A stretch of DNA of 40,160 nt. Source: Chitinophagaceae bacterium (GTDB lineage: Bacteria > Bacteroidota > Bacteroidia > Chitinophagales > Chitinophagaceae). The translations under genes and the position numbers were made by a program. Shown one piece after another: positions 32,363 through 35,349 of this stretch. The DNA is taken from the NCBI GenBank assembly GCA_947442625.1, contig CANEWJ010000006.1, positions 1 through 40,160 on the forward strand. Reading direction: 5' to 3'. The notes beneath the pieces were generated by a model that had not been told where the DNA came from, searched no databases, and saw only the letters and a program-made list of their open reading frames with translations. The first letter of the stretch is position 1, and every line of letters starts with the position of its first letter.

Positions 32363-32692
32363 TTACTTCAGCTTGATGAGAAAATAAATGGCGGGGAGAA
32401 ACAACATCAGCTTGTACAATGCAAAAGCCCCCACAGCAACGTCAAGCCCCATGTGCGCCACCACAATTCCCAGAAACAACCATGCCGCCCATTTTTCTTT
32501 TGACCAAATAAAAGAGAGGGCAAGAAAAAGGATGATGTTCAACAACGCATGGGCTGAAGGATACAGGATACCAAATATTGCATAGACTCCGGTGAATGAA
32601 TACACCAGGTCAAATAAACCCAGTGCAAACAAGCATCCGAGGAGAATCATGAAAAAATAATCTTTGTTTGCAGCCTTGGATTGTTGGGTCAT
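32363..32692 (-). CDS. Small four-helix membrane protein, unknown function
   Basis: A 109-residue protein with four predicted transmembrane helices (FMILLGCLFALGLFDLVYSF; LYPSAHALLNIILFLALSFI; WAAWLFLGIVVAHMGLDVAV; LYKLMLFLPAIYFLIKL). I recognise no named family. It starts on the ATGA overlap with the HIT gene stop (4 nt), so the two are translationally coupled and belong to the greA-hit transcript. Histidines in helices 2 and 3 (SAHALLN, VAHMGLD) might bind metal or haem, but this is conjecture. Convergent with ruvC. Confidence 0.75.
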   Translation of the reverse strand: MTQQSKAANKDYFFMILLGCLFALGLFDLVYSFTGVYAIFGILYPSAHALLNIILFLALSFIWSKEKWAAWLFLGIVVAHMGLDVAVGAFALYKLMLFLPAIYFLIKLK

Positions 32693-33087
32693 TGCTTGAG
32701 TGCTTGAAGAATTTTCTGTTGTGCTTCCTTCAATTCATCCTGAGAAGGCTTCAGTTTGGGTCTTGTAAAATTCAGGTCATCGGCTGTATCGATGGGCACC
32801 AAATGTACATGGGCATGCGGCACTTCCAGTCCAACCACTGCCATTCCACAGCGCTGGCAAGGAAAAGCTTTTTCAATGGCTTTGGCAATGGGTTGGGCAA
32901 ATTGTAAAACTGCGCCGAGATCATGCGCATCCATGTCAAACAACTTGTCTGTCTCCTTTTTCGGAACCACGAGTGTATGGCCTGACACAAGTGGAAAAAC
33001 ATCCAAAAAAGCATAGAATTGATCATTCTCGGCAATTTTGAAAGAAGGAATATCCCCTGCAATGATTTTTGAAAAAATGGTTGCCAT
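32689..33087 (-). CDS. HIT family nucleotide-binding hydrolase
   Basis: A 132-residue histidine-triad protein of the Hint/PKCI type that hydrolyses nucleoside phosphoramidates or dinucleotides. It begins MATIFSKIIAGDIPSFK and has the HIT motif HAHVHLVPI (H91, H93, H95). The ATG at 33087 is chosen over the frame start at 33096 because the family begins at MATIFSKI. It lies 5 nt after greA and overlaps the next gene by 4 nt. Substrate unknown; often annotated as a general HIT protein. Confidence 0.94.
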   Translation of the reverse strand: MATIFSKIIAGDIPSFKIAENDQFYAFLDVFPLVSGHTLVVPKKETDKLFDMDAHDLGAVLQFAQPIAKAIEKAFPCQRCGMAVVGLEVPHAHVHLVPIDTADDLNFTRPKLKPSQDELKEAQQKILQALKQ

Positions 33088-33092
33088 GGATA

Positions 33093-33563
33093 TCAAATCG
33101 CAATATGATCAATGGTAAATACCACCTTGCCATTGGGTGCAACAATCTCCGCCTCTTCACCCACTTTTTTCCCAAGCAACCCTTTGCCGATGGGAGAAGT
33201 AACGGATATTTTCTGCATTTTCAGATCCGCTTCCTTTTCAGATACAATCTGATAGGTAACCGATTTTTGGGTAGCCTTGTTGGTGATGGTAACCTTGGTC
33301 AGGATGGATACCTTGCTGGTGTCTATCGTAGTTGCATCAAGGATGCGGGCACTGGCCAATTCTGTTTCCATGCGGTTGATCTTGGCTTCAAGCAGACCCT
33401 GTGCTTCTTTTGCAGCGTCGTATTCTGCATTTTCTTTGAGATCACCTTTTTCCCTTGCCTCTGCAATGGCGCGGGAAGCGGCCGGTCGTTCAACACTTTT
33501 CATGTGTTGCAGTTCAACCTTCATTTGCTCAAGGGTCTCTTTGGTTACGTACATTATGCTCAT
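33093..33563 (-). CDS. greA: Transcription elongation factor GreA
   Basis: Rescues backtracked RNA polymerase by stimulating transcript cleavage. The 156-residue protein has the N-terminal coiled coil (ETLEQMKVELQHMK; AIAEAREKGDLKENAEYDAAKEAQG) with the tip acidic pair in the D-L-K-E-N-A-E-Y-D-A-A-K block, and the C-terminal GreA/GreB domain ending in GKVVFTIDHIAI. Either ATG 33563 (MSIMYVTKE) or 33554 (MYVTKE) may be the start. A three-codon frame (ATG TCT ATA TGA, 33571-33560) overlaps the first ATG as ATGA and may couple translation. Its leader contains a strong hairpin followed by T8 directly after the promoter box. It leads the greA-hit-membrane protein operon. Confidence 0.95.
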   Translation of the reverse strand: MSIMYVTKETLEQMKVELQHMKSVERPAASRAIAEAREKGDLKENAEYDAAKEAQGLLEAKINRMETELASARILDATTIDTSKVSILTKVTITNKATQKSVTYQIVSEKEADLKMQKISVTSPIGKGLLGKKVGEEAEIVAPNGKVVFTIDHIAI

Positions 33564-33590
33564 ATAGACATCTTTCAGTTGGTCGGTTTG

Positions 33591-33632
33591 AAAAAAAATG
33601 AGCAACGCCTCAGTTAGGGCTGAAGCGTTGCT
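33591..33632 (-). terminator. Intrinsic terminator in the greA leader or end of the upstream operon
   Basis: On the minus strand AGCAACGC (33632-33625) pairs with GCGTTGCT (33608-33601); TCAG (in-stem, 33623-33620) pairs with CTGA (33613-33610), with a one-base mismatch and a 6-nt loop. Two bases later comes T8 (33598-33591). It ends 27 nt before the greA start at 33563. It lies just after the greA -7 box (33639-33646) and 29 nt after the upstream hydroxyacid dehydrogenase stop, so it can act on either transcript. Confidence 0.85.
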
Positions 33633-33638
33633 GCATTG

Positions 33639-33646
33639 CAAAGGTA
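33639..33646 (-). promoter_or_regulatory. Putative -7 box of greA
   Basis: Minus-strand TACCTTTG followed by C is an exact TAnnTTTG match. A transcript from it would begin at about 33633-33635, right where the terminator hairpin (33632-33601) starts. This is the same octamer as the atpD and tsaE boxes. Confidence 0.5.
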
Positions 33647-33661
33647 AATAATTTTTGTAAA

Positions 33662-34597
33662 TCAAGGCCAGGGCAACAAATCCAGCTTTTTGAGCAGGCT
33701 TTGGGCCAATTTGACCAACGACTCATGACTGGAGCCAGCAATGTGTGGCGTAACAATCACATTCCTGTGCCTCAACAGTTGTTGCAACATGTCTGTTTCA
33801 TGGGGTGCATAACTTGCAAGATCCTCATTTTCAAGCACATCCAAGCCTGCGGCAGCAACCAGGCCTTGGTCTAATGCACTGATCAGGGCGGCTGTATCTA
33901 CCACCCCACCCCTGCTGGCATTGAGAAAATATGGTCTTTTTTTAAGCGAAGAGAAAAACTGCTCATTGGCATAATGCTGCGTTTCCGCATTTAAGGGCAG
34001 GTGGAAACTGATGGCATCAGCCGATTCCTGGATGGTTTCAAGTGTGGATTCAATGATATGGCCACCACTGAAACCTGTCTTGTACTTGTCGTGCGCAAGC
34101 ACTTTCACACCAAAGGGTGAAAGCAAATGGGCAAAGGCTGATCCCGTATGTCCCAAACCAATGATACCAACTGTTTTGCCGCCCAGCTCAAATCCCCTGT
34201 TGGCCTCACGCAGCCATATTCCTTCCCTCACTTCATCCCTGGAGCTGCTGATGTTGTGGAGCAGCGAAAGCAGCATACCAAGACAGTGTTCACCCACTGA
34301 TTCACAGTTGCCATCCGGACTGCTCATGCAAACTACATGCTGGGAAGTTGCCTGATCAACATCGATGATCTCCATTCCACTGCCCAATCTCCCAATCCAT
34401 TTCAGTGATTGGGCGGCTGCCAGGATTTCCTTGTCAATTTGAATCCTGCTGGCCACAATCAATCCGGCATAGGAAGGAATCAATTCTTTCAACTCCTGAT
34501 GGCTTATTTTCTCCTGGGTATCCACCAGGTATCCTCTTTGCTCCAGCCCTGCTTTGAGACAAGGATGGGCAGGGGCAGTGATCATCACTTTAGGCAT
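33662..34597 (-). CDS. D-isomer 2-hydroxyacid dehydrogenase (phosphoglycerate dehydrogenase-like)
   Basis: NAD-dependent oxidoreductase of the D-2-hydroxyacid family. The 311-residue protein has the Rossmann motif VGIIGLGHTGSAFAHLL, and the catalytic set R (NASRGGVVD), E (GLDVLENED) and H (TPHIAGSSHE). The N-terminal half (VDTQEKISHQELKELIPSYAGLIVASRIQID) is the substrate domain. No ACT domain is present, so it is a short form; 3-phosphoglycerate, glyoxylate or hydroxypyruvate are possible substrates and serine synthesis cannot be claimed. ATG 34597 overlaps the ksgA stop by one base (TGATG); a TTG at 34600 is the only alternative. Its stop is 29 nt before the terminator at 33591-33632. Confidence 0.88.
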   Translation of the reverse strand: MPKVMITAPAHPCLKAGLEQRGYLVDTQEKISHQELKELIPSYAGLIVASRIQIDKEILAAAQSLKWIGRLGSGMEIIDVDQATSQHVVCMSSPDGNCESVGEHCLGMLLSLLHNISSSRDEVREGIWLREANRGFELGGKTVGIIGLGHTGSAFAHLLSPFGVKVLAHDKYKTGFSGGHIIESTLETIQESADAISFHLPLNAETQHYANEQFFSSLKKRPYFLNASRGGVVDTAALISALDQGLVAAAGLDVLENEDLASYAPHETDMLQQLLRHRNVIVTPHIAGSSHESLVKLAQSLLKKLDLLPWP

Positions 34598-35349
34598 CAA
34601 TTCATCTTGTTTAGTAGTTCGACAAAATCGAGCACAGACAGCTGTTCTGCACGTTTTGTAAAAATCGGATCCAGCAGGTCTTCTTTTTTGAAATAGGGTT
34701 TCAAAGGATTCCTCAATTGTTTTCTTCTTTGTCCAAATGCCAGCTTCACCAACAGCATGAATTTCTTGTGGTTGGTGATCCCATAAGGATTGCCTGCATC
34801 TTCAAACATGATGACGCCACTTTTCACTTTGGGGGGTGGATTGAAGCAGTTTTCGTCCACATCAAACAAGTATGTCGTTTTGTAATAGGCCTGGGAAATG
34901 ACACTCAGAATGCCATATTCTTTTGATCCCGGACCCGAGCAAATCCTAACGGCAACTTCCTTCTGGAACATGCCTATCATGGTCTCCACCTGCGCCCTCC
35001 AATCAATAACTTTGAAAACGATCTGGGTGGAAATATTGTAAGGGAAGTTGCCAATCAAGGTAAAGCGTCCGCTGAAGGGTGCATCAATCTCAAGAATATC
35101 TGCTTCGATGATCTTGCCCCGCACATGAGGATAGGCTTTCAGCAGAAATGCCACCTTCTCTGCATCAATTTCCACCAACTTGAGGTCTACCCCCTCCAAC
35201 CCTTTCAGGTACTTGGTCAGTGCACCACCACCCGGACCCACTTCCAGCAATTGGCTGTATTGGTGCGCATTGAGGGCCTCAATGATGCGTATGCAGACCG
35301 TTTCATCTTTCAAAAAGTGTTGTCCTAGCGATTTCTTGAGGGTGTACAT
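34597..35349 (-). CDS. ksgA: 16S rRNA dimethyladenosine transferase KsgA (RsmA)
   Basis: Dimethylates two adjacent adenosines near the 3' end of 16S rRNA (A1518 and A1519 in E. coli numbering). The 250-residue protein starts MYTLKKSLGQHFLKD (the family signature GQHFL at 9-13), with the SAM-binding LEVGPGGGALTKYL, the catalytic GNFPYNIS (family usually NLPYN) and the C-terminal helical domain with PPPKVKSGV. Length is normal. A -7 box ends 5 nt before the ATG, so the mRNA may be leaderless. It begins the ksgA-hydroxyacid dehydrogenase operon and diverges from pdxA, with 53 nt between starts. Confidence 0.96.
   Translation of the reverse strand: MYTLKKSLGQHFLKDETVCIRIIEALNAHQYSQLLEVGPGGGALTKYLKGLEGVDLKLVEIDAEKVAFLLKAYPHVRGKIIEADILEIDAPFSGRFTLIGNFPYNISTQIVFKVIDWRAQVETMIGMFQKEVAVRICSGPGSKEYGILSVISQAYYKTTYLFDVDENCFNPPPKVKSGVIMFEDAGNPYGITNHKKFMLLVKLAFGQRRKQLRNPLKPYFKKEDLLDPIFTKRAEQLSVLDFVELLNKMN

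Follow-up and report, generated by a model that had tools for sequence, protein, structure and literature searches.

The window, i.e., the whole stretch of DNA that was analysed, comprises 40,160 nucleotides of a Chitinophagaceae contig. The features under study lie on its minus strand around greA, the gene under control, whose identity was supported by searches. In the direction of transcription these are:

34597 to 35349, minus strand: gene upstream of the dehydrogenase-like gene, presumably ksgA, a name taken over from the preliminary description.
33662 to 34600, minus strand: gene upstream of greA, which from its sequence we take to be a member of the D-3-phosphoglycerate-dehydrogenase family.
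33639 to 33646, minus strand: -7 box TACCTTTG, a consensus match to the element used by the primary sigma factor of Bacteroidota.
33634, minus strand: predicted transcription start (G), 4 nt past the box (33633 in the case of a 5-nt gap), placed according to the spacing in Flavobacterium johnsoniae.
33601 to 33632, minus strand: putative terminator hairpin AGCAACGCTTCAG-CCCTAA-CTGAGGCGTTGCT with 13 pairs and a 6-nt loop, its foot at the predicted position +3.
33591 to 33598, minus strand: T8 tract following a CA spacer, where a leader RNA of at most about 44 nt is predicted to end.
33564 to 33590, minus strand: remainder of the greA leader from the T tract to the ATG, weakly conserved.
33093 to 33563, minus strand: greA, 156 aa, with its ATG at 33563.

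The dehydrogenase-like gene stops 15 nt upstream of the -7 box, so that the hairpin may end its transcript as well. At the other end, a gene at 32689 to 33087 (minus strand), which we assume to be HIT-family-like, starts 5 nt past the greA stop, and the leader therefore probably controls both genes.

The -7 box TACCTTTG, read from 33646 to 33639, agrees with the consensus TAnnTTTG and with its refined form TAHHTTTG (PMC6847099), and the promoter was assigned by this consensus. In F. johnsoniae, many transcription starts are located 4 or 5 nt past the -7 element (PMC6847099). A TTG about 17 to 21 nt upstream of the box was weakly enriched.

The arrangement given in the preliminary description, an exact -7 box followed at once by a strong hairpin and T8, all before the greA ATG, was confirmed from the sequence. 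Among the 13 terminator-like sites detected when 10 kb were scanned (shuffles give an average of 10.5 sites), this hairpin has the longest stem, and the RNA from 33634 to 33591 folds with -21.8 kcal/mol (z = -6.4), a value reached by none of 200 shuffles. With its G+C-containing stem and a T tract directly after it, the hairpin has the sequence of an intrinsic (Rho-independent) terminator, and, as in GraL of E. coli, it is situated between greA and the (consensus-based) promoter of this gene. The strict test found no second box-plus-terminator arrangement in the 40 kb window, both strands considered. The search of the window against Rfam returned no family at gathering score, and the site looks like an unlisted leader element.

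For the comparison with relatives, a family set of 117 genomes was used, of which 115 contain greA and 110 provided upstream regions for the analysis. The family is probably Chitinophagaceae, a name carried by the majority of those close relatives that have a family or genus name. Outside these 110 are G030, where the motif was seen by eye, G005, where model R1 (see below) matched beside greA, and G069, G079 and G082. A CAACGC...GCGTTG hairpin with a T tract is present upstream of greA in 107 of the 110 regions. Two more loci (L105 and L110) possess a hairpin and a T tract with different arms, and L094 (G090), where the called upstream ORF is on the opposite strand, is alone among the 110 in having no comparable hairpin plus T tract. 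At a few loci (L038, L080, L101, L102) other or inner hairpins were chosen by the initial hairpin finder. The motif was also found in all 78 loci of a named set that partly overlaps with the family set (80 loci, two with less than 130 nt upstream being left out). The -7 box directly precedes the terminator in 89 of the 110 regions according to the strict test, which 21 regions failed, while 10 failed the loose test. Relative to the predicted start, the hairpin foot falls between -2 and +6 in 64 of these 89 relatives and beyond +6 in the other 25, which would leave some room for other structures there.

A Shine-Dalgarno-like GGAGG or AAGGAG precedes greA in 29 of the 107 family leaders (e.g., L003, L005 to L010, and L012) and is not found in the window; Bacteroidota have been described as naturally lacking Shine-Dalgarno sites (PMC6847099).

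The preliminary description had named as its alternative that the hairpin does no more than terminate the ksgA-dehydrogenase operon upstream, and had proposed to examine relatives with a different upstream gene. In this case the hairpin would lie behind the greA promoter by chance. It is indeed well positioned to terminate the dehydrogenase transcript, and a dehydrogenase on the same strand is found upstream of greA in 70 of the 110 family genomes, 69 of which carry the motif. However, the motif is likewise present in 27 of 28 regions with another same-strand ORF and in 11 of the 12 regions with an oppositely oriented ORF, where the neighbour class was given by tblastn for the dehydrogenase or else by the longest nearby ORF and may be wrong in individual cases. 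Moreover, 38 of the 40 upstream regions without a dehydrogenase detected by tblastn retain the hairpin. A terminator was located within 200 nt upstream of greA in 108 of the 110 family genomes and within the same distance upstream of purA in only one of 28, the latter being a rough baseline from one gene (30 loci, two dropped as the start was unrecognised; eno not included). The presence in 107 of 110 regions, including 11 of the 12 in which the upstream ORF is oppositely oriented, shows that the hairpin belongs to greA and not merely to the upstream gene, and a role as operon terminator only is considered very unlikely. Of the interpretation in the preliminary description, the tie between a leader terminator and greA is supported, whereas the short RNA, the control of read-through by GreA or by backtracking, and autoregulation are hypothetical. 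The hairpin is kept with greA rather than always with the dehydrogenase gene and is not merely the end of that operon, although dual use is possible in the 70 genomes, where ending the dehydrogenase operon may be a competing benefit.

The specificity of the arrangement was assessed with strict thresholds that had been set after the greA leaders were seen, and the controls were run under identical thresholds. In 640,628 strand-bases around 110 greA loci, 97 strict matches were detected, all of them within greA leaders. The control DNA around purA and eno (480,632 strand-bases with 311 boxes) contained one strict match (L207). None of 2372 control tiles matched strictly and 28 of 2964 matched loosely, and single-base shuffling of each greA upstream region gave the strict arrangement in 0 of 170 cases.

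Copies elsewhere in the genomes were searched with model R1. In its own genome, R1 matched one site at E <= 1, the next site following at E 2.2. At the same threshold a match was obtained in 39 of 40 family genomes, and the best match was beside greA in 38 of them, which is so by construction since many of the 40 genomes are in R1's own alignment; in the remaining matched genome, G033, no greA match was found. There were 24 more R1 rows with E from 0.0021 to 0.98, some of which are reverse-strand readings of a site already listed. The best non-greA site, in G011 (E 0.0021), is a terminator without a -7 box behind a gene that we take to be TonB-like. In L337, at about 1222 to 1266, a terminator whose arms resemble those of the greA hairpin (GCAACGCC...GGCGTTG) and a long T run stand behind a presumably TonB-like gene, with no -7 box. 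The R1 site of G006 is a hairpin with greA absent from the neighbouring ORFs, and that of G037 is a hairpin on a contig other than that of greA. Outside the family, R1 matched under strict filters in one of 242 genomes of the class, on a different contig from greA.

The conservation of the stem was analysed in alignment A1, whose 107 rows were chosen by a pattern requiring most of the lower-stem bases, leaving out L094, L105 and L110. The consensus stem has 12 pairs, five of them with two-sided changes; 97% of the cells are paired, and sliding the partner abolishes the pairing. In total, 108 two-sided changes that keep the pairing were counted compared to a shuffled mean of 27.7, and none of 500 shuffles reached this value, which establishes covariation. 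The number of pairs with a two-sided change was equalled by 62 of 500 shuffles and is thus not beyond shuffles. It is the upper stem that covaries, the lower stem CAACGC/GCGTTG being an identical pair in 105 to 107 of the 107 rows. The identity of random pairs of rows is 82% in the ten-base arm ends and 71% in the 12 nt past the hairpin, compared to 36% in the leader 16 to 28 nt past the hairpin and 27% in the 20 nt that precede the box region.

Almost invariant outer half-sites CAACGC/GCGTTG would also be expected of a palindromic DNA operator recognised by a dimeric repressor. The half-sites, however, are 11 to 21 nt apart with all distances in this range represented, and at two stem positions G-U, which breaks the symmetry of the DNA but not the RNA stem, is more frequent than any other pair (65 and 75 of the 107 rows). 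Both observations point to the RNA and not a DNA palindrome as the conserved feature, so that an operator of this kind is highly improbable.

The same alignment bears on a leader peptide (ATG CAA CGC...) that would govern read-through. An ATG stands immediately before CAACGC in 19 of 107 leaders, and the window itself has ATG-CAG-CAA-CGC with an in-frame stop, but any ATG, GTG or TTG is present at that place in only 45 of 107 and the frames end at scattered places; this explanation is given practically no weight.

A strong stem a few nucleotides from the predicted 5′-end would fit another function, the protection of the greA mRNA from decay without any termination, as 5′ stems may stabilise mRNA. 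Such a stem needs no T tract, yet a run of at least six T past the hairpin is kept in 101 of the 107 relatives, and stabilisation in place of termination is judged unlikely. It is unlikely, too, that the site is mainly the gene of a trans-acting sRNA, with greA expressed via read-through. GraL of E. coli acts in trans as well (PMC6829880), but here the predicted RNA is nearly all stem, and its loop varies in sequence and length (half-sites 11 to 21 nt apart) and offers no conserved single-stranded seed. On the neighbour, spacing and frame data, the upstream-operon terminator as sole role, the DNA operator, the leader peptide and the trans-acting seed RNA were set aside.

Beyond the family, 60 upstream regions from 45 families of the class were sampled. 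The order box, hairpin, T tract and greA was found in 35 of these by the strict test (27 families) and in 43 by the loose test (33 families), leaving 25 and 17 regions, respectively, that failed. A terminator is located within 200 nt upstream of greA in 48 of the 60 regions of the class. Among 20 regions sampled from other classes of the phylum, 16 have a terminator within this distance, but the arrangement with the Bacteroidota box was detected in only one (strict) or five (loose). The class regions mostly use other stem sequences, and judging from the sampled sequences the stem of the family is not retained outside of it. A second recurring stem of other families has the arm GAGTCC (10 of 60 class regions, e.g., L127, L130, L139, and L172), the partner of which is mostly GGATTC with a G-U pair, and a wider pattern of that kind occurs in 19 of 60. 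By its name alone, this stem may be likened to, and may be, the little-described GUCCY-hairpin, a motif of Bacteroidetes and Proteobacteria that has a table entry without Rfam accession (PMC2864571); greA is not named in the accessible text of that article. In three loci of one other family (L152, L153, and L170), two tandem units of hairpin and T tract were seen by eye before greA.

Taken together, the greA leader is likely to be formed by an intrinsic terminator close to the promoter, and this element would be a minimal transcription attenuator. According to this model, RNA polymerase would start at about 33634 and the first 34 nt or so would fold into the hairpin. At the U tract, some polymerases would release an RNA of about 40 to 44 nt and others would continue into greA. 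If started at the box, greA transcripts must pass the terminator, and the stop signal behind the greA start probably limits the amount of the polymerase-rescue factor GreA. With the foot at +3, as predicted, there would be no RNA ahead of the hairpin from which an antiterminator or an aptamer could form in this genome, and read-through would consequently be left to the polymerase, to factors on it (GreA, NusA, NusG) or to the choice of the start site, since initiation within the 5′ arm would inactivate the terminator. The options that remain are a fixed degree of partial termination, control by polymerase-bound factors and start-site choice, and negative feedback by GreA may be supposed by analogy with GraL of E. 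coli.

Somewhat doubtful, and proposed here tentatively, is a further reading, in which the element would be a phylum-wide, ligand-free sensor of the polymerase state. The leader would consist of one hairpin from the first bases on, and its arms would be near-fixed within a lineage as they are read by a GreA-responsive polymerase that is barely past the promoter. Near-fixed arms would fit a sequence requirement like that of the GreA effect in E. coli. If the sensor reading is true, premature termination would be, together with the greA leaders of E. coli and Firmicutes, a recurrent solution achieved with unrelated hairpins.

A leader reduced to promoter, hairpin and T tract provides little space for antiterminator models and could serve as a compact test system for examining the effects of polymerase, GreA, NusA and NusG individually. 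The mechanism of greA autoregulation is unsolved even in E. coli, where the leader sequence and perhaps an unidentified factor are needed (PMC6829880). The minimal leader occurs in most sampled members of the family as well as in many members of the class, and its promoter differs in type from that of E. coli.

In E. coli, transcription terminates within the greA leader in about two thirds of cases, and GraL rises with GreA (PMC6829880). The repression requires catalytically active GreA but not the native promoter, and it is abolished in log phase when the arms are swapped with the pairing kept (PMC6829880). The GreA effect was not observed in vitro, and it may need an accessory factor or be indirect (PMC6829880), so that the GraL analogy is itself unsolved. 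Attenuators of greA and rnk have been predicted in Proteobacteria, bacilli and Clostridia, and greA attenuation was shown in E. coli (PMC2965389); the words Bacteroidetes and Bacteroidales and words beginning with Flavobacteri- or Cytophag- do not occur in the accessible text of that article. A greA leader of the Bacteroidota was not among the literature matches listed, and the supplements of PMC9723704 and PMC8040213 (structured 5′ regions) or of PMC7366714 and PMC10994844 (start sites) may hold one.

The Enterobacteria greA leader family RF01769 matched the E. coli locus L336 with 127.5 bits and, in the same search, none of the 15 Bacteroidota loci tested at E <= 1. Against the whole of Rfam, these 15 loci gave seven chance-level matches to other families, all below the gathering score. 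This result and a stem that differs by eye agree with the suggestion of the preliminary description that the leader is independent of that of E. coli.

Like the greA/rnk attenuators (PMC2965389), the element described here has a predicted terminator in the greA leader; whereas a clear antiterminator was reported for each of those, the predicted start would leave no room for one here. With GraL it shares an intrinsic terminator between promoter and greA. In E. coli, a short RNA is released and the sequence of the arms matters; in the family studied here, the lower arms hardly vary. It differs from GraL in its stem sequence (by eye), in its promoter type, in the RNA before the terminator (19 nt in E. 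coli versus a predicted 2 nt or so) and in the stretch from T tract to ATG, which is longer in E. coli. The best reading is that the leader works like GraL of E. coli with a different stem: greA-leader attenuation as such is known, and what appears to be new is a Bacteroidota form with its own stem and a different promoter type.
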